Shown here: piece by piece, positions 615 through 29,248 of the stretch
Numbering within the stretch: the first letter of the stretch is position 1
How the letters are laid out: each line of letters begins with the position of its first letter
IMG/VR virus record: IMGVR_UViG_3300017727_000053
Location: 1 to 36,268 of that record
DNA: 36,268 bases
Direction: 5' to 3' (one strand)
Origin: a virus
Translations under genes and position numbers: made by a program
The notes under the pieces: generated by a model
What the model was told of the DNA's origin: nothing
The model's database searches: none
What the model saw: only the letters and a program-made list of their open reading frames with translations

Positions 615-2759
615 TTAGCTGTCTCCATCCATATAGATACCAGCAGCTGTAGTGCCCTCTGCGGTAATTGGCAATCCCGCTCTCTGCAAGACTTCGTTAA
701 TAAAAGCTGCCTTAGCGTCAGAGAGCGAACCCTGATCCATAGCCTCTTTAATATATCTTAGTGCTGCCTGCACCTGCGGTCCTCTTTGCTCTGTCATGCC
801 CCTAGCGATATCAGCAAGAATCTTTTGTCGCTCTTGCTCTGTGACCTCAGCAGACGTTCCGGTAATTACACTGATCATTCTTTTGCTTGCACTTAAAGGC
901 TCGCCACGCGCTATGGAGCCAAGGAATCCCGGCTCCAGCATTTCGTCAATTTGCTTGCCTACCTCTCTCCGCCGAGCGGTTGCACTATTTGGCGCTACTG
1001 ACGCTAAAAGCTCCAGTGAAGAGCGCACCTCTTCCAGCTTTTTATTAAGCTGCCTGTACGCACCCGGAGGGAGTATTGCCTGCAACTTGCGGCGGCTTGC
1101 TACTGTGCCAAGCTCCATAACAGCCTTTCTTGCAGCGGCGACACCCTCATCACCACCAGTGCTGATAAAGTTTCTTGCGTTGGTCATTAGCTCTTCTAGC
1201 TGACCTCTGGCTGCAAGCCTCATGGCTGCAAGCTGATCCGCAGACGCCTCTCGCGTTGCGTACAGCACTTCCTCAAACGTGGTTGATGGGCGAAAGATGG
1301 TAGAACCCATCTCTACTGCTTGTCGCTCAAGGATGGCGTCACCGCCAAGTTTTACAGCTTGATCATACTGCGGTACAGCCTTACCAAGTGCTGCCCGCAA
1401 CTGGCCTGCAACCCTGTCCAGTGCAATGCCTGTTCCCTTTGGTCTTTGCGTGATGGGATCAAAGAACTCAGGTCCGTATGCAATGTCTTGGAGACCGCGC
1501 TTTAAGAAGTCTAGTTGTATCACGTTGGGCTGCTCTTGGAATACTACAGACCCATCACTAGCTACAGTCGCTTTTATTTGGCGATCCGTAATCCCCTCAA
1601 GCTGCATTAAGTCGTTGGCGTCCTTGATCGCTTTTTTAAGGTGCTGGCTTGGGATTCTGTTTACTATGTTTAGGATGGCATCGCCCGCTGGGGACGTATA
1701 ATCAATCGGGCTGGAGTACGCGGCCTTGTACGCAGCGTTTCTGGCGGGTGCAGATCGACCAGAAATAGTCTCAATAATTGTTCTTTTGCCCGTAGGCGCG
1801 GCACCCAGAACCTCGTCCATCATTTGACCTAGCTGCGCCGACATCTCTGATGCGCGACCCTCTACAGCCTCGCGTCCTACAGACGCGGCTTCTCCAGCAG
1901 CCCCCAGAGTCATTACGGCATCCAGCAGGTTTTTTGTGGCTAGACTTGAGTCAGCCAACATTCCAGAATCACCAGCCCTTTGTATAGCTGATAACGCATC
2001 CTCAAGTGTCCCGCCGCCTCTAATCGTGTTTGCGATAATCATCCCAGCACCGGGCGACACGTTTAGCTTCTCTGATATCTCCTTGATTGCTGCGTCTGTT
2101 TGCTTGCGGCTTGTAGATCCCCGAGTAAGAAGTGATACGGCACCGCTGAACATTCCGCCCAAAGTAAAACCCAGCGCCGCGTCTCTTCCTGCTTGCGGCA
2201 GTCTGTCTAAAAATCCACCCTCTGCCGCACCGAACCCAGAAACACCAGCCTCTACCCCAGCTAGTGCAGCACCGCGCAAAGCTTGATTTGCCATCGATCC
2301 GCCCACAGCGGCGGGAGCCATAACAGCAAATGGGCCTGATCCTGCAATCCTTGCAACTAAACTTTTCCCGGGAGCCTGCTCTTCCGTAGCCCTTTGAATG
2401 GCTTCCATTCTTTGCCTAGCATCTGGGCTTACCGCGCCCACCATTTCGGGGATGTACTCACCGATAAATGGAATGCCCTGAGACGCCTTGAGTGCGGCGG
2501 CTGCTAGTGGTGACTCACCAATCAGGCCAATGTTTTCAAGCTCTCGCCGCTTTTCTTCCGTAGGGTTAATAGACCCGAGCGACTCCATAATCCGCTTGAT
2601 CTCGTCCTGATCGGTTGTTGAGTATCGCGGAGAAACAAAAGCAAGCCCGTTGGCGGTCTGCACAACTCTGCCGCCATCCGGTGTGTTCATAACAACCTCA
2701 GCGCCTGACGGTTGCTTTGCTTTACTGTCTAATACAGCTTCTATGATTGATGTTGACAT
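615..2759 (-). CDS. Large internal (ejection) virion protein candidate, 714 aa
   Basis: Large Ala/Gly-rich, mostly helical protein with no enzyme motif that I recognise. The start chosen is the ATG overlapping the upstream stop (TAATG); an open frame six codons longer would intrude into the previous gene. Residues of about 130-215 hold a long run of small and hydrophobic residues (GSGPFAVMAPAAVGG, AALGFTLGGMFSGAVSLL) that could insert into membranes. The rest is rich in predicted amphipathic helices. Its size and its place as the last of three consecutive structural-looking genes just before the portal fit podoviral internal proteins that are ejected with the DNA (inference). No lytic transglycosylase motif is visible. 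It could instead be another tail or structural component. Confidence 0.6.
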   Translation of the reverse strand: MSTSIIEAVLDSKAKQPSGAEVVMNTPDGGRVVQTANGLAFVSPRYSTTDQDEIKRIMESLGSINPTEEKRRELENIGLIGESPLAAAALKASQGIPFIGEYIPEMVGAVSPDARQRMEAIQRATEEQAPGKSLVARIAGSGPFAVMAPAAVGGSMANQALRGAALAGVEAGVSGFGAAEGGFLDRLPQAGRDAALGFTLGGMFSGAVSLLTRGSTSRKQTDAAIKEISEKLNVSPGAGMIIANTIRGGGTLEDALSAIQRAGDSGMLADSSLATKNLLDAVMTLGAAGEAASVGREAVEGRASEMSAQLGQMMDEVLGAAPTGKRTIIETISGRSAPARNAAYKAAYSSPIDYTSPAGDAILNIVNRIPSQHLKKAIKDANDLMQLEGITDRQIKATVASDGSVVFQEQPNVIQLDFLKRGLQDIAYGPEFFDPITQRPKGTGIALDRVAGQLRAALGKAVPQYDQAVKLGGDAILERQAVEMGSTIFRPSTTFEEVLYATREASADQLAAMRLAARGQLEELMTNARNFISTGGDEGVAAARKAVMELGTVASRRKLQAILPPGAYRQLNKKLEEVRSSLELLASVAPNSATARRREVGKQIDEMLEPGFLGSIARGEPLSASKRMISVITGTSAEVTEQERQKILADIARGMTEQRGPQVQAALRYIKEAMDQGSLSDAKAAFINEVLQRAGLPITAEGTTAAGIYMDGDS

Positions 2760-3976
2760 TAGTGCAGCTGGTCCCACTCTCTGAGGATCTCACCAATAGA
2801 CTTGCTCTGACCTTTACCTACCTTTAAAAACTCAGAAAAAAGTATTGGGTCGGCGCTACCCTCAACGTAAACAACTGCGCCTAATGTGTTTGCAGCAAGA
2901 TCAAGGGCATTTCTAAGCGTATTCATATGATTGAAATCTGTGGAGCGTGAACCAGCTGCAAACTCACCCAGCGCGGAGGAAAGACTATTTCGAGACACCA
3001 TGTAGTCAAGAATAGCTTTATTTGCTGCGGGATCTTTGTCCAATGATGGCATATAGCTTTGTGCGTACCTAGCATCAAAGTCTGTCTGCGGACCCTTGTT
3101 CTGTCGTAGCTCTTCTGCAACCAGCGTGGATGTAAACGCTTGTAGGGTTTGCGCGTTAGATATTGCGGTTTCATCTACGTCCATACCTAAAGACTGCGCC
3201 ATTGATCTAACGCGATTTTTAGTTTCCTCAAACCGCCCTGTTGGTACGCCCTTGTCAAACATCATCTGCAGCTGTCGCAGCTGTGTATTCTGGCTTCTCG
3301 CCAACTTACCCGACTCAGTGTACACGCCAATCTGCTCTGGTATTTGCTTGGCTAAGGCCGTCATCAACGCATCCTGACCAGTGTTGACGGTAATACCACC
3401 CGCCTTTCCAGCCGCCTCAACAGCCTCAACATCGCTGTACCCCACCTTTTTATAAAACGCCACCTTTTCACTAAAGGATGTTGGCTTTTGCGTCAGCGCC
3501 GTCATTGCAGTTTTTGCCAGAGTTGGATCAGCCTCAACTAAGTCAGCAAGCTCATCATGCCCAGCCCTGCGGAGCGCATCGGCGGTCTTATTTCCCTGAC
3601 CCCGCAGCAGGCGCAAGGTTTGCTCTGTTTCAATTTGGCTTTGCAGAGACCGCGCTAAGTTGGCGTCTGGGTTAAGGCGCATGGCATTGAAGCCGATTGC
3701 CAGCTGTTTGCGGTTAACTGGGTCGCCTAGATAATCTAGTGCGCCTCTGCCAAGTTTAGATAACATCCCCGGATCTTGCGGCCCGGGATTGGTAGATCCG
3801 CCCGAAACCGATTGCAGGCGCGGCGCTTGACGCATAGCCATAATGCGCTGCACCTCTGGATCATCCATTTTTAAGTTTGGCGGTGGCGTTGTAATAGGCG
3901 GCATAGTCTGAGCAGGCTGCGGAGCCGTAGGCTGGTCGGGATCGCCCAGCTGCAGCAAAAGATCCATTAAATTCAT
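2759..3976 (-). CDS. Internal/structural virion protein candidate, 405 aa
   Basis: Unrecognised protein. Residues 1-60 are Pro/Gln-rich and low complexity (PDQPTAPQPAQTMPPITTPPP). From about residue 70 onward it looks all-helical, with charged amphipathic segments and one hydrophobic patch (TLGAVVYVEG) near the C-terminus. It overlaps the upstream gene by TAATG and the downstream 714-residue gene by TAATG, implying translational coupling of three successive virion genes. Position and composition suggest an internal or ejected protein, partner of its neighbours. No catalytic motif was seen and there are no close familiar relatives. Confidence 0.55.
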   Translation of the reverse strand: MNLMDLLLQLGDPDQPTAPQPAQTMPPITTPPPNLKMDDPEVQRIMAMRQAPRLQSVSGGSTNPGPQDPGMLSKLGRGALDYLGDPVNRKQLAIGFNAMRLNPDANLARSLQSQIETEQTLRLLRGQGNKTADALRRAGHDELADLVEADPTLAKTAMTALTQKPTSFSEKVAFYKKVGYSDVEAVEAAGKAGGITVNTGQDALMTALAKQIPEQIGVYTESGKLARSQNTQLRQLQMMFDKGVPTGRFEETKNRVRSMAQSLGMDVDETAISNAQTLQAFTSTLVAEELRQNKGPQTDFDARYAQSYMPSLDKDPAANKAILDYMVSRNSLSSALGEFAAGSRSTDFNHMNTLRNALDLAANTLGAVVYVEGSADPILFSEFLKVGKGQSKSIGEILREWDQLH

Positions 3977-4530
3977 TATGCCATTCCCATGATTAGCTTT
4001 GCCATCTTCCCTCTCAGCCCGCCGCTGGCTTGGTTTTGTGCTGTAAAGTCTTGGGCGAGCATTCCCATGTTGGGGGTCTGTGGACCTGTAAGAAGCTGCG
4101 GTGCGCCGGGCTTGCCATCTGCTGCGCCTTGTATCATCGACAACAGGCCCATTAACTGCTCTTGGTCTATGCTGGGCTTGTCAATAACGCCGGTCTTTTG
4201 CAGCACCGCTTGGAACGGGCTAACCGGACCTCCAGCTTGAGGACCGCCAAATCTCTCCCCAAGCGCCAAAGCCTTATCAAACATATCTGGCGATGCAGTC
4301 GCGCGCTGCGGTATTGCCGGAGATGCTGGCGACATCTGTGGCGCTTGCAACTTCTGTAGTGCTTGCGGTGAAAGCGGATTCTGCCCAACAGGAGACATTA
4401 AAGGATTGTTAGCCATTTGCATGGCCTGACCGCCAGACGCTGCGGCTTGGCGGGAGGCAAGGCTATCTCTAATGCCCGCCTTGTCCATGCCCATCTCTGC
4501 CAGCTTTAGTAAGCCAAATAAGGGACTCAT
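3976..4530 (-). CDS. Pro/Gln/Met-rich virion-associated protein, 184 aa
   Basis: Unrecognised. The first 30 residues form a helix (LFGLLKLAEMGMDKAGIRDS). Residues 35-100 are low complexity with repeated SP, NPL and LQ elements (NPLSPQALQKLQAPQMSPAS). The C-terminus has an amphipathic helix ending in LRGKMAKLIMGMA, which might bind membrane or a partner. Its ATG overlaps the preceding stop as ATGA and its own stop overlaps the next start as TAATG. The setting between an S74-domain protein and two large internal-type proteins points to a virion component (inference). Confidence 0.5.
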   Translation of the reverse strand: MSPLFGLLKLAEMGMDKAGIRDSLASRQAAASGGQAMQMANNPLMSPVGQNPLSPQALQKLQAPQMSPASPAIPQRATASPDMFDKALALGERFGGPQAGGPVSPFQAVLQKTGVIDKPSIDQEQLMGLLSMIQGAADGKPGAPQLLTGPQTPNMGMLAQDFTAQNQASGGLRGKMAKLIMGMA

Positions 4531-5801
4531 GCAATACCCCCATAATTTACGCGGTAATAACCATCTGGGAACTCAATGACCAGATCCGGCCTAGTCTCTT
4601 TAACCTCTTGCGCCAGTACGCCCATGTCAGAGCCAGTTTTGCCAAACACGAACTTGGCCTGCTTCTTCCAATCCCAAGCGTAAAGGTTATGCCCGCCCGG
4701 AGTCTTGCCCACCCTGCGGATGTTTTTCTTGAGCCTTGCGTCAGAGCCAAGAAGCATAGACATCCAACCAAACGCGCCCGGGTCACTTGTAGTGGTTGAT
4801 GACTGTGGAGTTTGCGTAACGCCCAATGCTTGGGAGAGATAGCTAAGGGCATTTGCCGGAGCGCCTTGGTATCCTCCGTACTGGCCTGCAGCCTTATCCA
4901 TCATCTGCTGATTAAGCATTTGCTGGATTGCGCCTTGCTGCTGCATTCCTTGCAGAGCCTCCTGACCCATTCCAAAGCCAAGATTTGAGAGCGCGCCCAA
5001 ACCTTGAGCGCCCTGCATCTGCATTCCAGCGCCCTGCAATCCAGCGCCTTGATTAGCTAGTGCGGCTTGCAGCCCCTGAGTTAAGCCAAACTGCTGGGCT
5101 TGGTTATCGGCTTGCTGGTTCGCAATGCTTGTCTGTGCGCCAAGCTGGGCGTTGGTTATCCCGGCTTGCAAGGCACTGCTCTGGTTCGCCAAGTAAGACT
5201 GTAGCTGCTGCTGTGCGTTTTGCTGCAAAGCCTGCTGGCGGCGACCTACGTCCTGCTGTCCCATCTGAGAAGCAAACTGGAAGCCTTGGTCACGCAGACC
5301 GGCAGCTGTCCGCGCACTACTATCAAGCGCGTTACGGGCAATCTCTGCCTCCATCAGTGCGCCACGGGAGCCACCGAATGCACCTGCCGCCTGCGCCTGT
5401 GCAGCCGCTTGGTTGGCTTGCATCAGCCTGCCGCGCTCAATATCAGCCATAGACTGATCAATTACCTCCCCCGTATAGGGGTTCATAAACCGATCTAGGT
5501 CAGCTTGCTGGAACTGTGCCGCCTCATAATCAGTGGCGTTAGGGTCAAGTTGCTGCGCTCTAACACTTTGAAATCCAGCGCCCATATTGGGCTTGTAGCT
5601 GCCACCCTCAACCATCATAGGCTGGTAATTCATGGCGTCCTGCATTCCGCCGTAGGCTTGTGTCATTCCTTGTGCGGATTGCTGAAACGCATCAAGCCCT
5701 CCATATGATGGACCTGTTGCGCCGCCGCCTTTGCCCCCGCTAGGGACTCCGCCTGCGCCTGCTGATGCGACCGGGACGCCGCCTGTAGCTTGACTACCCA
5801 T
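4527..5801 (-). CDS. Gln/Ala-rich virion protein with C-terminal S74 chaperone-like domain, 424 aa
   Basis: Domains in order: Gly-rich N-terminus with a GGKGGG element (about 1-35); a segment containing FMNPYTGEVIDQSMADIERG; a long Gln/Ala-rich probably coiled region (about 130-310); and a C-terminal domain starting at S353 with SDARLKKNI, the signature start of peptidase S74 intramolecular chaperones. In that family the Ser-Asp step is where the chaperone releases itself after trimer assembly. The domain here is short (about 72 residues) and stops at YYRVNYGGIA, without the long coiled coil that usually follows, so autocleavage is uncertain. Likely a trimeric tail or internal virion component. 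TAATG start overlap and an AGGGGG ribosome site precede it. Confidence 0.65.
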   Translation of the reverse strand: MGSQATGGVPVASAGAGGVPSGGKGGGATGPSYGGLDAFQQSAQGMTQAYGGMQDAMNYQPMMVEGGSYKPNMGAGFQSVRAQQLDPNATDYEAAQFQQADLDRFMNPYTGEVIDQSMADIERGRLMQANQAAAQAQAAGAFGGSRGALMEAEIARNALDSSARTAAGLRDQGFQFASQMGQQDVGRRQQALQQNAQQQLQSYLANQSSALQAGITNAQLGAQTSIANQQADNQAQQFGLTQGLQAALANQGAGLQGAGMQMQGAQGLGALSNLGFGMGQEALQGMQQQGAIQQMLNQQMMDKAAGQYGGYQGAPANALSYLSQALGVTQTPQSSTTTSDPGAFGWMSMLLGSDARLKKNIRRVGKTPGGHNLYAWDWKKQAKFVFGKTGSDMGVLAQEVKETRPDLVIEFPDGYYRVNYGGIA

Positions 5802-6481
5802 TAGAACCCCCTAAAAGATTGGAGTCGGCGCATTAATCCCTGCGGTATGTTTGGCACCCCGCCCTGCGGTATGGTCTGCCTTGGAGTTGGGGTTGGAACT
5901 GAAGGGCGCGGGAAAGACGCCTGCTGCGGTTGGAAACCCGGAACAGGTGTCAGTGTTTGCGGGCGGGGCAACATCTGCCCCATAGGCTGCGCGTTTTGCA
6001 GATTGGCTAACGTAAGATTTGACGAACTCGGGTCAAGCATCTTAGACGCAATGCCCCCTGCGGCCTGACCAGCGTTTGATGGCCCCATATACGGCAAAGA
6101 TGTAAGCGTACCAGTGCGGTCAATAGAACCCGGGTTTGGCATTCCACTTGCTGCGTTACCGTAATTAACATACTGAGGTGATGGGCCGCTAGTCATGCTC
6201 GGCTGAGTTGAACCAACGGCGTTGTTTAGATTTTGGTTGCCAAACATACTAGAGGCCGCAGAAAACATAGAGGGCTGCATAGGCTGGTTTATGGCTTGGT
6301 TCATCTGGCCTACTGTCGGACCACCCATTCCCTGCGGGCTACCGCCGCCTTTACCACCCATTCCGCCGGGTGACGCTTGAGAAGGACCGCCCTTTCCTCC
6401 CATTCCGCTAGATTGGCGGGGGCTTCCTTGTGGAACGCTCATAGGCGATGCTAAATTTGATCTTGATGGTTGGGCAAACAT
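5801..6481 (-). CDS. Low-complexity Gly/Pro/Gln/Met virion protein, 226 aa
   Basis: No recognisable fold. Residues 20-60 contain repeated GMGGKGG elements, and the rest is rich in Pro, Gln, Asn and Ser (RPQTLTPVPGFQPQQ), suggesting a disordered linker or filler protein. A ribosome site (TGAGGAAG) lies before the ATG. The GGKGG element is shared with the two flanking genes, suggesting that the three work in the same structure or have exchanged sequence. Probably virion-associated, by context only. Confidence 0.45.
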   Translation of the reverse strand: MFAQPSRSNLASPMSVPQGSPRQSSGMGGKGGPSQASPGGMGGKGGGSPQGMGGPTVGQMNQAINQPMQPSMFSAASSMFGNQNLNNAVGSTQPSMTSGPSPQYVNYGNAASGMPNPGSIDRTGTLTSLPYMGPSNAGQAAGGIASKMLDPSSSNLTLANLQNAQPMGQMLPRPQTLTPVPGFQPQQASFPRPSVPTPTPRQTIPQGGVPNIPQGLMRRLQSFRGF

Positions 6482-21518: not shown

Positions 21519-21687
21519 GCTGCTCTATCCACCTCTCGTCTTTGTACTCTGGTGACTTCTGTAGTGTACGAAATTCTTGTACCAAGTCACGCATTAAATG
21601 CTCATCATCCTCTAGCCGGGTGATAAGCGAAAAGCATAGGGCGCGGTACGCCTTGTACTTTGCCCTATAGTGTTCTGCCTCAGTCAT
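21499..21687 (-). CDS. Unknown coiled-coil protein, 62 aa
   Basis: ATG in an ATGA overlap with the methyltransferase stop; a longer open frame extends into the methyltransferase and is rejected. MTEAEHYRAKYKAYRALCFS continues as a charged helix (LEDDEHLMRDLVQEFRTLQK). Function unknown; coupled to the methyltransferase. Confidence 0.5.
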   Translation of the reverse strand: MTEAEHYRAKYKAYRALCFSLITRLEDDEHLMRDLVQEFRTLQKSPEYKDERWIEQHGIPFD

Positions 21688-22538
21688 AAACTCTCTACTT
21701 GCTGTATCCGCTGGCCTATCCACCGCATGACGGGTACAGCCATCGAATTGCCTAGCGCCCGGTAACGCGGACCATCTGGGCATTTGTCTGCTGGCTTCCC
21801 GCGATACGGGATCTGGGTGAAGCCGTCAGGGAATCCCTGCAGCCGCTCGCACTCCGTTGGTGTGATCCTGCGGACCCGCAAGCCATCTGTATGAATCGCG
21901 TCAGCCTCTACTCGCTCGTTTCCTGTACGACTGAATGGAGGGCCAGTTGTAACAGCGGGAGCAACTTTTTGCCCCTCTTCTCTGCGCGGCGGAGAATCCC
22001 CGCACAAGCCTTGGCGCTCAAGAAGTACCGCTGCGGAACGCCTCCAATCTCCAAGATATCCGACAACGAACACACGCTTGCGGCGCTGTGGGACACCAAA
22101 GTACTGAGCGTCAAGTGTTCTGTAGGCGAACCCATACCCGAGTTCTGCCAGCGCCCCGAGGAAGGAACCAAAGTCCCGTCCTCCGTTCGATGACAAGACG
22201 CCGGGTACGTTTTCCCACACCAGCCACTTGGCAGCCTTTCGTTCAGCAAGCCTAAGAAATTCGAGGGACAAGTTGCCACGATCATCATCCATTCCGCCTC
22301 TGAGTCCGGCGATGCTGAATGATTGGCAGGGTGTTCCCCCCACAAGAAGGTCGATTGCTCCATATTGGTCCGCTCCGATTGTCGTGAAGTCACCATGTAG
22401 CGGCACATCAGGGTAGTGATGCTGGAGTGCCGCACGAGGGAAGTCCTCAATATCTGAAAAGAATGCTGGCTTCCAGCCTAGAGGATGCCACGCCATCGTA
22501 GCCGCCTCTATGCCGGAGCATACTGAGCCGTATCTCAT
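21684..22538 (-). CDS. Cytosine-C5 DNA methyltransferase, 284 aa
   Basis: Transfers a methyl group from SAM to C5 of cytosine in DNA. The family motifs are in order: CSGIEAATMAW (I), GGTPCQSFSIAG with the catalytic Cys (IV), WENVPGVL (VI), QRRKRVFVVG (VIII), TECERLQGFP (IX) and YRALGNSMAVPV (X). The stretch between motifs VIII and IX is short, leaving a compact target-recognition domain. No restriction enzyme lies nearby, so it likely protects phage DNA from host restriction or marks DNA for packaging or expression. It overlaps both neighbours by ATGA. Target site cannot be read from sequence. Confidence 0.92.
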   Translation of the reverse strand: MRYGSVCSGIEAATMAWHPLGWKPAFFSDIEDFPRAALQHHYPDVPLHGDFTTIGADQYGAIDLLVGGTPCQSFSIAGLRGGMDDDRGNLSLEFLRLAERKAAKWLVWENVPGVLSSNGGRDFGSFLGALAELGYGFAYRTLDAQYFGVPQRRKRVFVVGYLGDWRRSAAVLLERQGLCGDSPPRREEGQKVAPAVTTGPPFSRTGNERVEADAIHTDGLRVRRITPTECERLQGFPDGFTQIPYRGKPADKCPDGPRYRALGNSMAVPVMRWIGQRIQQVESL

Positions 22539-23236: not shown

Positions 23237-23620
23237 CTAATTAAATGACACTAATTTGTAGTCGGGATCTGCCTCTAATTTCTTGAGTTCTTCCCTGTAA
23301 TGCTTGGCTATCTCTCGCCGCAGCGCCTCGTTAGTCTTCATATGACCCCGCGCCTTCTCACGCAGTATCGCCATATGTCCCTCGCCCAGCGTCTGCTCTA
23401 ACCAATCGTGGAACGCTACTGGGTTCTCAGTAAAGTAACGGTGGCTGCTATGGGTTAGGCTAACTGCATTATCAAGGGACCATCTTAGGATCTTAGCCCG
23501 GCGTCCGTAGATGTGGGCGCACTCTAATACATCAGTCCTACCAGTGTGCAGGCACTTGCCGTCCCTCGCCCGGACTGCCTTGCTAAACCAGATGTCTGCA
23601 GCGTCCCTCTTAACCGCCAT
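23237..23620 (-). CDS. HNH-like nuclease, NinG-like, 127 aa
   Basis: LECAHIYGRRAKILRWSLDNAVSL followed by SSHRYFTENPVAFHDWLEQT gives the AHI...N...H pattern of HNH/NinG (Rap)-type nucleases, which cut branched recombination intermediates in lambda. The zinc-binding Cys pairs of that family are largely lost (only GKCLHTG and LECAH), so the metal site may differ or activity be altered. C-terminal helix is Lys/Glu-rich. TGATG overlap with the upstream gene. Function assigned with moderate certainty. Confidence 0.5.
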   Translation of the reverse strand: MAVKRDAADIWFSKAVRARDGKCLHTGRTDVLECAHIYGRRAKILRWSLDNAVSLTHSSHRYFTENPVAFHDWLEQTLGEGHMAILREKARGHMKTNEALRREIAKHYREELKKLEADPDYKLVSFN

Positions 23621-23877
23621 CAGTGAACCTCTTTGCTCGCGTCACTTATGATGAACTCCATCTCACCCTCTAGCTCTTCTAGCTCGCAGCACAAGCAGGT
23701 CAGCCACACCCGGGTAAAGTCTTCCAGATTAACATCTACCGTAATGCCATCGGGCCATGTGTCGGTGTAAACGTCAGTCAGGTTTTTGTTTGTCGTGTTT
23801 GACATCGCCCCGCCAACAGCCGTGGTTAGGATCGCAACTTCGCCCTTGCCCATAGGCATCTTGAATACCGGGATCAT
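23620..23877 (-). CDS. Unknown acidic protein, 85 aa
   Basis: MIPVFKMPMGKGEVAILTTA continues with a beta-like segment and a C-terminal region containing VWLTCLCCELEELEGEMEF, where three Cys lie close together. Overlaps neighbours by ATGA and TGATG. A start at an internal ATG (MSNTTNKN) is possible. No function recognised. Confidence 0.45.
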   Translation of the reverse strand: MIPVFKMPMGKGEVAILTTAVGGAMSNTTNKNLTDVYTDTWPDGITVDVNLEDFTRVWLTCLCCELEELEGEMEFIISDASKEVH

Positions 23878-25034
23878 GACCGCGGCCTCACTGTAATCCT
23901 ACCCACTTCACCATCGGTCTTGTGGTAGGTAATAACCTTTGCGCCCCTTCGGCTGACCCAGCCGCCGCGGGCTGCATACGCATCTCTACCGCTTAGTGTT
24001 GGGTGCATCTCAGCGATTGCACCGCCATCTTCCACGACTCGCTCATGGTGGAAGTGACCAGAGTGTATGTAGCAGGATTCACTTCGCCCCCACATAGACC
24101 TAAACCTTGGCTCGCTTGCAAACAGCTTGTGCAGCTGCGCCAGCTTTACTTTATGGCCGTGATGAAAGCCGAGCATCGTCTCGCCATGCAGGTAAGCGTA
24201 GTAAGGGAAATCGTTATCAATCACCTCAAGCCGGGCGTCATCGGCAAACAGGTGTTTGATGTGCTTCCGCAGCCAGATGCTACCCGAGATGTCGTGGTTG
24301 CCCTCAGCAGATATCACTACAACCTTCTCAAACTTCCGCAGCATCATAGTGACGGCTTCAGTCATAACAGACATCGCCATCTCTACCAGCTTTCCGTAGC
24401 GGGTGTCGGCATCCAGAATATGTCCCGACTGTGGCGTGACGCTCAGTATTCCATCCCAGTGCAAGAAGTCCCCAAGCTGACACAACACTCCCGTGCCAGA
24501 CTTTGGTGACGCCTTGATCATGTCGTTAATAGAATTTAAAAAGACATCCCGGGCGATCTTCATATCCCAATCATCGCCGGTCTCTGCTTCATAGGCGTAC
24601 ATACCCAAATGAAAATCGGTGATGGTCACCAGCGTTAGCAAATCTGAGTCGGTAGACTTAGGCGCTGCAGCTGGCTTAAACCTAGGTAGCCCCTCTTGCG
24701 CCGCCTCTAGTCTCTCAATGAGGATTTCAAACTGGCGCTGCTCATCTGTCTGAGACTTTACCCACTGGCGCACCGGGTTGCCATCTTCATCGTAAAACGT
24801 CGAGACGCCTTTGATTTTATGACCGTCAGGCACCGGGTGCAGCCAATCGTTTTCGGGGCTATAGCCTTGGCGCTTCGCTTTGTTCCTTACCGCCCTCAAA
24901 TGTTCTTTTAGAGAACTGCGCGTCATGTTCATGACTACGGCGGCTTCATTCTGCGAAAGACCATCCTCTAAAACCAGCCTAACTGCATCGTTTTGTTTTT
25001 TTGTAGAGCAAAATTGAAGCAATGGGTGAGTCAT
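23874..25034 (-). CDS. HTH plus calcineurin-like metallophosphoesterase, 386 aa
   Basis: Residues 8-60 form a helix-turn-helix (AVRLVLEDGLSQNEAAVVMN, MTRSSLKEHLRAVRNKAK). The catalytic domain shows the classic metal-binding series: DFHLG, GDFLHWDG, EGNHD, HHGH and SGHFHH, with metal ligands D, H, D, N, H, H. This type hydrolyses phosphodiesters or phosphomonoesters; fused to a DNA-binding domain it suggests a nuclease or phosphatase acting at DNA. It follows the nuclease-NinB gene after one base, with a GGGGG site. Lambda also has a metallophosphatase (NinI) in its nin region. Similar HTH-phosphoesterases occur in other marine phages (recollection). Confidence 0.85.
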   Translation of the reverse strand: MTHPLLQFCSTKKQNDAVRLVLEDGLSQNEAAVVMNMTRSSLKEHLRAVRNKAKRQGYSPENDWLHPVPDGHKIKGVSTFYDEDGNPVRQWVKSQTDEQRQFEILIERLEAAQEGLPRFKPAAAPKSTDSDLLTLVTITDFHLGMYAYEAETGDDWDMKIARDVFLNSINDMIKASPKSGTGVLCQLGDFLHWDGILSVTPQSGHILDADTRYGKLVEMAMSVMTEAVTMMLRKFEKVVVISAEGNHDISGSIWLRKHIKHLFADDARLEVIDNDFPYYAYLHGETMLGFHHGHKVKLAQLHKLFASEPRFRSMWGRSESCYIHSGHFHHERVVEDGGAIAEMHPTLSGRDAYAARGGWVSRRGAKVITYHKTDGEVGRITVRPRS

Positions 25035-25035
25035 A

Positions 25036-25914
25036 TCATCCCCCTTTAAGTTTCATGTACTCCGAATCTTGTGGACAGGTAAGGCGAACGCCGTGATCTA
25101 GCGCCCACTCTAAAACACCATCCATGAACTCCATCATCTCCCCGCGGTCTAATCCACTAGTCTCTCGTACCTGCCCGGCTATAACCGTGTTGTTAATTTG
25201 CCGGTCTTCGGTTCCTAACAATTTGTATTTTATCAGTTCTTTCATGCGATCTTCATTTATATCTGCACCCCGGGCTGCAAAGTGTTCAGACATCTCACGA
25301 CACCAAACATGAAACAATGCATTCTGGGACAGAGATCGCTTCGGCCTGTACCGCTTTACTTTCCACTCAACTGGGTACTCCCAGTTCCATTCGCTCTCCA
25401 GATACTTCTGAAAAAACTCAATGCGCTGGCGCAGCTGCTGCTTGTCCTTTACTAACCAAAACTCACTCATAGTTTCCCTCATTCCCTCAATGGGTCGTAA
25501 TAGATCGTGCTTGATCTTGAACGCATCCGCTCTCTCCCGGAACGGGCCATCAGGATCGCCTTTCTTTACCTTCCTGCACAGCCGGTCAAAGTCGTGTTTC
25601 CACGCCCAGCCGACCATCTCAGTTTTGCCTGACTTCATGTTGCTACTACAAAAAACGTAGGCATCAACTGGGTAGTCAATTTGTGACGCCTCAACATGAG
25701 CGTCATGGTGCGCTTGTGGCGACACATTCCGCTGCTTAGTCTTCACATCAATCTTTATGCCGCAGAACTCTAAGTCCCACAAGCATCCAATATTTGACTC
25801 TGACACCCTGTTTGCGGCAAGCGCATCCCGGACAAGTAGTTCTGCCGCCTTCGCAGTCTGGTGACGCCCGGGGTCATTTACCGCGATAGACGCGCCATTG
25901 CTCCAGTTACGCAT
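25036..25914 (-). CDS. PD-(D/E)XK nuclease-like domain fused to NinB-like domain, 292 aa
   Basis: N-terminal domain (about 1-150): helix KAAELLVRDAL, then WDLEFCGIKIDVKTK giving the D...DxK core with Lys, then QIDYPVDAYVFCSS and MVGWAWKHDF, the arrangement of restriction-endonuclease-like folds. C-terminal domain (about 155-292): WKVKRYRPKRSLSQNALFHVW with EMSEHFAARG and RETSGLDRGEMMEFMD, resembling NinB (Orf), a recombination mediator of lambda. A single protein would join strand cutting with recombination loading. Start chosen at the ATG overlapping the DUF3310 stop; a TTG four codons earlier is possible. Confidence 0.65.
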   Translation of the reverse strand: MRNWSNGASIAVNDPGRHQTAKAAELLVRDALAANRVSESNIGCLWDLEFCGIKIDVKTKQRNVSPQAHHDAHVEASQIDYPVDAYVFCSSNMKSGKTEMVGWAWKHDFDRLCRKVKKGDPDGPFRERADAFKIKHDLLRPIEGMRETMSEFWLVKDKQQLRQRIEFFQKYLESEWNWEYPVEWKVKRYRPKRSLSQNALFHVWCREMSEHFAARGADINEDRMKELIKYKLLGTEDRQINNTVIAGQVRETSGLDRGEMMEFMDGVLEWALDHGVRLTCPQDSEYMKLKGG

Positions 25915-26113
25915 TAGCCTGCTCAATCAGAATATCTATATAGTGACGGGCTTTCTCCAAATCTTGTATACCGCCCTTTACCTTGTACCTTGATACATAT
26001 TTGATGACCGCGTGTTCGCATATACCTAAATCATTTTGCAGCGCGTACTCCAGCGGCTGTATCTTCATGGTTTTGTAGTGGCTCCCGCCGACCTGCTCCG
26101 AATCCCATTTCAT
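25907..26113 (-). CDS. DUF3310-type small protein, 68 aa
   Basis: GGSHYKTMKIQPLEYALQND followed by EHAVIKYVSRYKVKGGIQDL and KARHYIDILIEQ matches DUF3310, a small helical family present in many phages (T7 gene 1.7 contains it and affects nucleotide metabolism; function otherwise unclear). Starts in an ATGA overlap with the helicase stop. Likely part of nucleotide or replication metabolism. Confidence 0.85.
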   Translation of the reverse strand: MKWDSEQVGGSHYKTMKIQPLEYALQNDLGICEHAVIKYVSRYKVKGGIQDLEKARHYIDILIEQANA

Positions 26114-28380: not shown

Positions 28381-28644
28381 CTAAAATGGGATGTCATCAG
28401 ATACCGGCTCTACCTTAGTTTCCTGCTTGTTCTCAGGCTCCCAAGTGTCCAGCTTTGCGTAACCCTTCCCGGCCTTGCTAACCAACATATCCATGTTGAT
28501 CCACTCAGCACCTTGGTTGGCTTTTAAATACTCAGCCATCCACTCACGAAATTGCGCTACGTTGATTGACAGCTTGCCGATAACAAAATCCGGCTGACCG
28601 TCACGCTTCTTTGGGTATAGACCACCGATTAACTCACTATCCAT
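28381..28644 (-). CDS. ssDNA-binding-like protein with acidic DDIPF tip, 87 aa
   Basis: Ends in SDDIPF, the conserved C-terminal tip of bacterial single-strand DNA-binding proteins that recruits partner enzymes. The body, with a beta-like core (LYPKKRDGQPDFVIGKLSIN) and Lys/Gln-rich linker, is much smaller than a full OB-fold SSB (about 110 residues). Overlaps the annealing-protein gene by 8 bases. Likely an SSB analogue or a recombination partner. Confidence 0.55.
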   Translation of the reverse strand: MDSELIGGLYPKKRDGQPDFVIGKLSINVAQFREWMAEYLKANQGAEWINMDMLVSKAGKGYAKLDTWEPENKQETKVEPVSDDIPF

Positions 28645-29248
28645 TAATAATCTCCTTACGTGCTGCGTTTACTTCATTTGAGCGTAGGTACGCCCTCTCT
28701 TCTGTGGTGAATACACCACCCTTTGATGGAGCCAGCCACAACGCCTCTTTCTGCGCGTCACTTAACTCCAGCCATGCCTCCGCAAATGCGAGGGCATCTT
28801 TTTCCACAAATGCCGCCTTCATGTAAGAGACGGTTTGCCAATCATTTCTCACGGCTTCATTGTGGGCCATGAGTGTAGCGACTTGGGAAGAAACCTGCTC
28901 ATCAATGTTTTGCTGCGAAATGGCGTTGGCAACTTCGTCTGCTGAGGCAAATTCAGTACCGGCAAAGCCGCAAGCTGCGAGGCTTCTGCCGATTGCTGAC
29001 GTTTCCGCATTTTCCATTGCACTTGTCTTGTTGATCTTAGATGCCGCCCGTTTCTCCTCCGCATAACCTGTCCCTCTTATGCGCTGGTCCTGATCTAGCA
29101 CCAACGCCTTCATCACAACAGTTTCATCATCAGCGGAGACAAGCTCGGTCACAATAGACCACTCTGGATACTGCTCGTTAAACTCCGCTACCCGTAACGC
29201 CACGGTCTTGTACTCCCGACCATGAATCTTTACCACTCCATCTGTCAT
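28637..29248 (-). CDS. Erf/Rad52-like single-strand annealing protein candidate, 203 aa
   Basis: N-terminal half, VKIHGREYKTVALRVAEFNE then YPEWSIVTELVSADDETVV, a strand RGTGYAEEKRAASKINKTSA and helix METAxTSAIGRSLA-type region (NAETSAIGRSLAACGFAGTE, FASADEVANAI), matches phage proteins usually annotated as Erf or Rad52-like recombinases. Such proteins pair complementary single strands during phage DNA recombination. Its neighbour ends in an SSB-type tip. Assigned by pattern memory; a database comparison would settle the family. Confidence 0.6.
   Translation of the reverse strand: MTDGVVKIHGREYKTVALRVAEFNEQYPEWSIVTELVSADDETVVMKALVLDQDQRIRGTGYAEEKRAASKINKTSAMENAETSAIGRSLAACGFAGTEFASADEVANAISQQNIDEQVSSQVATLMAHNEAVRNDWQTVSYMKAAFVEKDALAFAEAWLELSDAQKEALWLAPSKGGVFTTEERAYLRSNEVNAARKEIING

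Follow-up and report, generated by a model that had tools for sequence, protein, structure and literature searches.

A phage protein joining a restriction-type nuclease domain to a NinB/Orf domain

An uncultured virus of bacteria, represented here by a stretch of 36,268 nucleotides (the window), encodes a protein in which a predicted restriction-type nuclease domain is fused to a NinB/Orf domain. The fusion is confirmed as real, and its first half appears to be a replaceable cutting head attached to a recombination protein.

The fused gene and its neighbourhood

The gene occupies positions 25036–25914, as given in the original prediction, and a single uninterrupted open reading frame was found there. 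The prediction had left the strand unstated; the frame runs on the minus strand from 25914 to 25036, and the plus strand of this interval is rich in stop codons. A TTG located 12 bases upstream of the ATG (position 25926) is an alternative possible start. The relevant features, all on the minus strand, are as follows.

25036–25914, minus: fused gene of 292 amino acids, encoding a PD-(D/E)XK nuclease domain followed by a NinB/Orf domain (begins with ATG at 25914, stop codon at 25036–25038)
25474–25914, minus: restriction-endonuclease-like PD-(D/E)XK domain, residues 1–147 (AlphaFold2 model matches and invariant residues)
25039–25470, minus: NinB/Orf recombination-mediator domain, residues 149–292 (Pfam PF05772, phrog_72, Foldseek match to 1PC6)
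25468–25470, minus: in-frame internal ATG (Met149), a possible second start that coincides exactly with the codon at which stand-alone NinB begins in relatives
25471–25921, minus: exchangeable cassette that differs between phages alignable in both flanks at about 74–96 per cent identity (DNA alignments of the window with L013, L014, and L023, and of L006 with L023)
25907–26113, minus: DUF3310 gene, nucleotide-kinase-associated by PHROG names (PF11753, E 1.8e-10; phrog_236)
23874–25034, minus: DNA repair exonuclease by PHROG name, the next gene downstream (phrog_704, E 2.9e-121)
23237–23620, minus: NinG/Rap-like branch-specific endonuclease (phrog_5034, E 4.2e-15)
21684–22538, minus: C5-cytosine DNA methyltransferase, approximately 2.5 kb downstream of the fusion (PF00145, E 2e-51)

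In-frame fusions are also present on 12 further contigs (L001–L012), with 60–100 per cent identity to the window protein, which brings the contigs with both domains in one frame to 13; the copies in L008 and L010 are clipped by contig ends, and the most divergent fusions share 52 per cent identity in the N-terminal half. A viral structure database additionally holds an unnamed protein of 292 amino acids that is 90 per cent identical to the fusion. For pairs in which dN/dS could be computed, the ratio is 0.03–0.11 in the first half and 0.04–0.10 in the second, indicating that both halves are under purifying selection. A frameshift or chimeric-assembly artifact was ruled out by the 12 additional fusion-bearing contigs and the low dN/dS.

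The end of the upstream DUF3310 gene overlaps the start of the fusion by 8 bases, and one base separates the fusion from the downstream exonuclease gene. Genes for a helicase-type ATPase, a Lin1244-type replication-initiation-like protein, and a primase-type zinc finger lie upstream, and an SU10-type capsid protein and a large terminase are encoded elsewhere in the window. Judged by these family matches, the fused gene has neighbours of replication and recombination types, namely the helicase, the repair exonuclease, and NinG/Rap. The replication region also encodes a conserved 203-amino-acid protein (28637–29248, minus strand; phrog_11717, unknown function), which is found in most relatives of the phage group.

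The N-terminal half resembles type II restriction endonucleases

The first half had been proposed to carry the D...DxK arrangement of PD-(D/E)XK nucleases, and the alignment of its homologs bears this out: D47, D56, V57, and K58, along with R62, F88, G102, and K106, are invariant across 39 aligned sequences, down to 20 per cent identity. The predicted catalytic residues are E25, D47, D56, and K58, of which E25 is invariant among the fusions and is replaced by Q in some stand-alone relatives. No family match to this half was found in Pfam, PHROG, NCBIfam, or PADLOC, and sequence searches of the PDB with the single protein, the full profile, or the profile of the NinB half gave nothing useful, whereas fold comparison did. 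Because the Foldseek alignment of the full-length model ran across both domains with high rmsd, the N-terminal half was modelled and searched separately; in the full-length model, the placement of the domains relative to each other is unreliable (pTM 0.55).

The AlphaFold2 model of the N-terminal half, built from the 39-row alignment, has a mean pLDDT of 85.5 and a pTM of 0.81. Its PD-(D/E)XK domain spans residues ~15–145 and is composed of a helix (residues 15–32, containing E25), strands at residues 48–50, 53–62, 85–92, and 98–105, and a subsequent helix (residues 106–112), with D47 placed just ahead of strand 48–50 and D56-V57-K58 on strand 53–62. The top Foldseek match is NhoI (E 3.6e-4, TM about 0.48); Eco15I was also matched, as were DpnI (E 4.7e-3) and, more weakly, EcoRV, the resolvase Hjc, NaeI, HincII, and I-Ssp6803I (E 0.26), but only NhoI rows reached an E of 0.001 and some of the weak hits are unrelated folds. 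With the best match at a TM of ~0.48, none of the solved enzymes is a near replica of the domain. The original prediction had named the absence of a PD-(D/E)XK fold from a predicted structure as evidence against itself; the modelled structure matches restriction enzymes, so the prediction survives on this point. Model and conservation together show a predicted PD-(D/E)XK domain resembling those of type II restriction enzymes, in which the metal-binding and catalytic residues are intact.

It could still be argued that the first half has no catalytic activity and serves NinB as an added DNA-binding module. Some lineages with PD-(D/E)XK folds lose activity, and the most distant fusions are highly diverged in this half. 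We nevertheless regard such inactivity as highly improbable, since D47, D56, and K58 are retained in all fusions and in all 39 aligned relatives and dN/dS in the first half is low.

The C-terminal half is a NinB/Orf domain with a retained start codon

The last 144 residues are identified as a NinB mediator, in line with the resemblance noted in the original prediction, because they match Pfam PF05772 (29.5 bits against a curated cut-off of 23.8), phrog_72 ('NinB/Orf', E 2.5e-26), and the fold of NinB 1PC6 (Foldseek probability 1.00, E 9.7e-3). NCBIfam PRK09741 was also matched with an E of 1.8e-27, yet under that family's cut-off. A protein search matched 199 phage records, all at <60 per cent identity, and among the matches listed only the second half aligned.

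The internal ATG that encodes Met149 is retained in every fusion and, in the window, is preceded 6 bases upstream by GAGG, a ribosome-binding-like motif. Since ~7.6 per cent of the in-frame internal ATGs in the genes of the phage have such a site, the motif is no more than a hint. Free NinB may also be produced from the retained codon.

The segment ahead of NinB is exchanged between closely related phages

The same phage group includes 36 further contigs (L013–L048) in which NinB is a stand-alone gene. The start of these proteins (MSEFW, MGEFW, or a GTG version) corresponds precisely to residue 149 of the fusion, and they are up to 90 per cent identical to fused NinB. The slot ahead of them is hypervariable: 10 contigs carry a gene with a QVK motif (type B), 10 a gene with only a DIK motif (type C), 1 a gene with a DVK motif (type D), and 2 (L027 and L030) a phrog_13625 gene with no nuclease motif (type E), while in 11 (L032–L040, L045, and L046) the slot is empty beyond DUF3310; 2 contigs were too short to judge, and DUF3310 was not found in L027–L031. 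The profile of the fused domain (A4) matches type B in hhalign with a probability of 90 and an E of 1.8e-6, and profiles of the fused-domain family and of the slot genes of types B and D recover one another's members. By these comparisons, the type B and D genes are putative nucleases homologous to the fused domain; type C is nuclease-like by motif only. The original prediction had counted separate open frames in relatives as evidence against a fusion, and here the outcome is divided: NinB stands alone in many close relatives and the nuclease family stands alone elsewhere, but every instance of this nuclease type found in the slot (12 of 12 contigs, in addition to the window) is fused.

The boundaries of the slot are sharp at the nucleotide level. 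The window and L013 are 96.2 per cent identical down to position 25922, cannot be aligned over the following stretch, and are alignable again, at 80.5 per cent identity, from position 25470, which is the A of the internal ATG. Similarly, L006, which has the fusion, and L023, which has a separate type B gene, are 96.2 per cent identical up to base 2751 and 95.6 per cent identical from the internal ATG (base 3201). It follows that a whole nuclease segment has been swapped between near-identical phages, with one edge of the exchange at the NinB start codon.

In the NinB tree, in which some nodes are weakly supported, fused copies are dispersed among stand-alone ones: the window, L002, and L003 group with L013 and L014; L006 groups with L015, L023, and L026; L011 groups with L032 and L043; and L009 lies apart. 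Between the window and L009, dN rises from 0.117 in the first half to 0.373 in the second, whereas between the window and L011 it falls from 0.479 to 0.246; as estimated from these sequences, the two halves of the fusion have different histories. Scattered placement and discordant halves therefore point to several gains, losses, or exchanges, and not to one inherited fusion.

Such a pattern might be produced by a mobile, homing-endonuclease-like cassette whose spread depends on cleavage of unoccupied sites at the start of NinB, with the in-frame join as a by-product. The exact edges at the end of DUF3310 and at the NinB start codon, the existence of empty sites, the mixing of fused and unfused NinBs on the tree, and the weak fold match to the PD-(D/E)XK homing enzyme I-Ssp6803I are all compatible with this explanation. 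Yet the same boundaries are shared by several slot occupants that are unrelated or only distantly related, an outcome not expected from a single homing site; no stop codon interrupts the fusion in any instance, even though the NinB start codon is retained; and stand-alone relatives of the nuclease reside at many other sites, including beside methyltransferases. We therefore consider homing quite improbable as the explanation of the fusion.

Stand-alone relatives belong to a probable restriction-endonuclease family

A profile scan recovered 297 relatives of the N-terminal half in viral contigs, of which 80 were retained, and 8 in bacterial contigs. Nearly all are stand-alone proteins of about 170–190 amino acids. 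The sole family member found in isolated-phage records is in MW202481.1 (L064:1269-1778), and a search of such records with a divergent relative found none. The MW202481.1 member is 169 amino acids long, has no row in the feature table of the record, and adjoins a DUF3310-type gene.

Most stand-alone relatives have no NinB nearby. In L083 (3436–4360), however, a NinB gene (phrog_72, E 1.8e-24) lies directly before and overlaps a nuclease-family gene, and in L117 (1372–2309), L120, L121, L124, and L125, NinB is likewise followed by an overlapping nuclease-family gene, an order that is the reverse of that in the fusion. The NinB match is weaker in the L117-type loci (for L117, 21.5 bits in Pfam, just below the cut-off). 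Because the two halves are fused in one group of phages and adjacent in others, a functional link between them is supported.

The bacterial members offer a different context. In 4 of the 8 bacterial contigs, a DNA methyltransferase gene is adjacent to the nuclease gene or within ~700 bases of it: an N6/N4-type enzyme in L144 (locus 2611–4357), and C5-type enzymes in L145 (locus 2568–5381, with Vsr downstream), L147 (locus 3592–6229, with a controller-like HTH gene), and L150 (locus 2574–4456). Because this layout is that of type II restriction-modification systems, the stand-alone family is probably a restriction-endonuclease family, and these four loci probably encode restriction-modification systems with a restriction enzyme for which no curated family exists.

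These loci raise the alternative that the fused protein is a site- or modification-specific restriction weapon, in which the cutter retains its sequence specificity and breaks down the DNA of the host, of prophages, or of competing phages, while NinB serves mainly for dimerization and recruitment to replicating DNA. Besides the bacterial neighbourhoods, the alternative is favoured by the nearest fold relatives, NhoI and Eco15I, both of which cut methylated DNA (PMC11347163), by cassette turnover between phages that are 96 per cent identical in the flanks, which has the look of an arms race, and by the C5 methyltransferase of the window phage. That methyltransferase, however, is not kept with the fusion: among relatives it occurs only in some (L010, L018, L019, L021, and L022), and it was not found in L003–L005, which carry the fusion and the same region. 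For this reason, a restriction-modification pairing of the fusion with the phage's own C5 methyltransferase was set aside; with the nearest methyltransferase 2.5 kb away, the window lacks a type II restriction-modification layout. PADLOC, moreover, gave no match, and the exchange takes place inside a recombination operon, next to NinB. On balance, a restriction weapon seems rather unlikely.

Comparison with known proteins

The suggestion in the original prediction that a nuclease–NinB protein would be without precedent was an overstatement. Orf proteins fused to an HNH nuclease (DUF968, phiETA Orf20) were noted in 2014 (PMC4118853), and one Orf-HNH protein, phiNM1 Gp16, nicks DNA, binds RecA, and binds duplex but not single-stranded DNA (PMC12817073). 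A nuclease–Orf fusion as such is therefore of a known kind. Like phiETA Orf20 and phiNM1 Gp16, the protein described here combines an Orf/NinB domain and a nuclease domain in one phage protein; in those proteins, however, the nuclease is a C-terminal HNH domain with a zinc finger, whereas here it is an N-terminal PD-(D/E)XK domain, and the protein ends with NinB and has no HNH motif C-terminal to it. In a literature search conducted mostly without subscription journals, no published PD-(D/E)XK–NinB fusion was found, and the version with an N-terminal PD-(D/E)XK nuclease in an exchangeable slot appears to be undescribed.

Lambda Orf (NinB; PF05772, phrog_72, 1PC6) is similar in the C-terminal half and in its ninR-like neighbourhood with NinG/Rap, but is a stand-alone protein without a nuclease domain. 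The N-terminal half shares with the BisI family (NhoI and Eco15I) and DpnI the PD-(D/E)XK fold and a size of about 150 amino acids. NhoI combines the motifs WD and QVK (PMC11347163); the fusion likewise has WD as its first motif (residues 46–47) but DVK as its second (residues 56–58), and E25 corresponds to the helix glutamate. BisI enzymes, which are specific for methylated GCNGC, use QxK, so the PD-QxK active site of that family is not found in the fusion, and identity is about 14 per cent. The stand-alone phage and bacterial nucleases are clear homologs, mostly at 20–36 per cent identity and with the same invariant residues, but they have an N-terminal extension and no NinB domain.

A proposed mechanism

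We consider it reasonably probable that the protein is a two-domain recombination-associated endonuclease, in which NinB tethers a cutter and the cutter is a cassette exchangeable at the NinB start. The NinB part, like lambda Orf, would dimerize and bind both single-stranded DNA and host SSB, presumably at replication forks, gaps, or resected ends, and would thereby bring the metal-dependent cutting domain to a junction of single- and double-stranded DNA. The cutting domain may then nick or cut duplex or branched DNA, starting or processing recombination. It would itself be a cassette of the phage and bacterial restriction-endonuclease family, traded for other genes of the PD-(D/E)XK type at the start codon of NinB. 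Such trading suggests selection for having a nuclease that works with NinB, whereas the identity of that nuclease, and hence its specificity, can vary freely.

Several lines of evidence agree with this mechanism: the presence of the fusion in 13 contigs, the fold matches of both halves, the invariance of D47, D56, and K58, selection on both halves, and the homologous nucleases with QxK and DxK motifs in slot types B and D. The adjacency of stand-alone relatives to NinB in other phages (L083; L117, L120, L121, L124, and L125) is an independent sign of joint action, and Gp16, with its Orf-HNH architecture, sets a biochemical precedent by nicking DNA and binding RecA (PMC12817073). Against it, relatives with an empty slot (L032–L040, L045, and L046) show that the nuclease is dispensable, type E (L027 and L030) lacks a nuclease motif and type C has the motif only, and a branch nuclease is already supplied by NinG/Rap. 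Additionally, since Gp16 bound duplex and not single-stranded DNA, the step of recruitment to single-stranded DNA may not carry over (PMC12817073).

A more elaborate version of the mechanism, which we think unlikely, holds that NinB is constant while the nuclease ahead of it is exchanged, in frame or as a separate coupled gene, altering what is cut at sites of recombination or replication. Two products, the full-length protein and free NinB translated from position 25470, would then form mixed oligomers that, if this version were true, hold a limited number of cutting domains.

Implications

If active, the two-domain protein would add a second class to the mediator-nucleases of phages, one built independently of the first, and the coupling of a cutter to a mediator that binds SSB and single-stranded DNA would be a repeated solution. 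The fusion also points to a large unnamed nuclease family, with about 300 matches in viral contigs and with bacterial members that are restriction-enzyme-like. Finally, the near-identical phages that differ in the nuclease cassette form a natural set in which the role of the nuclease in recombination or competition is directly testable.
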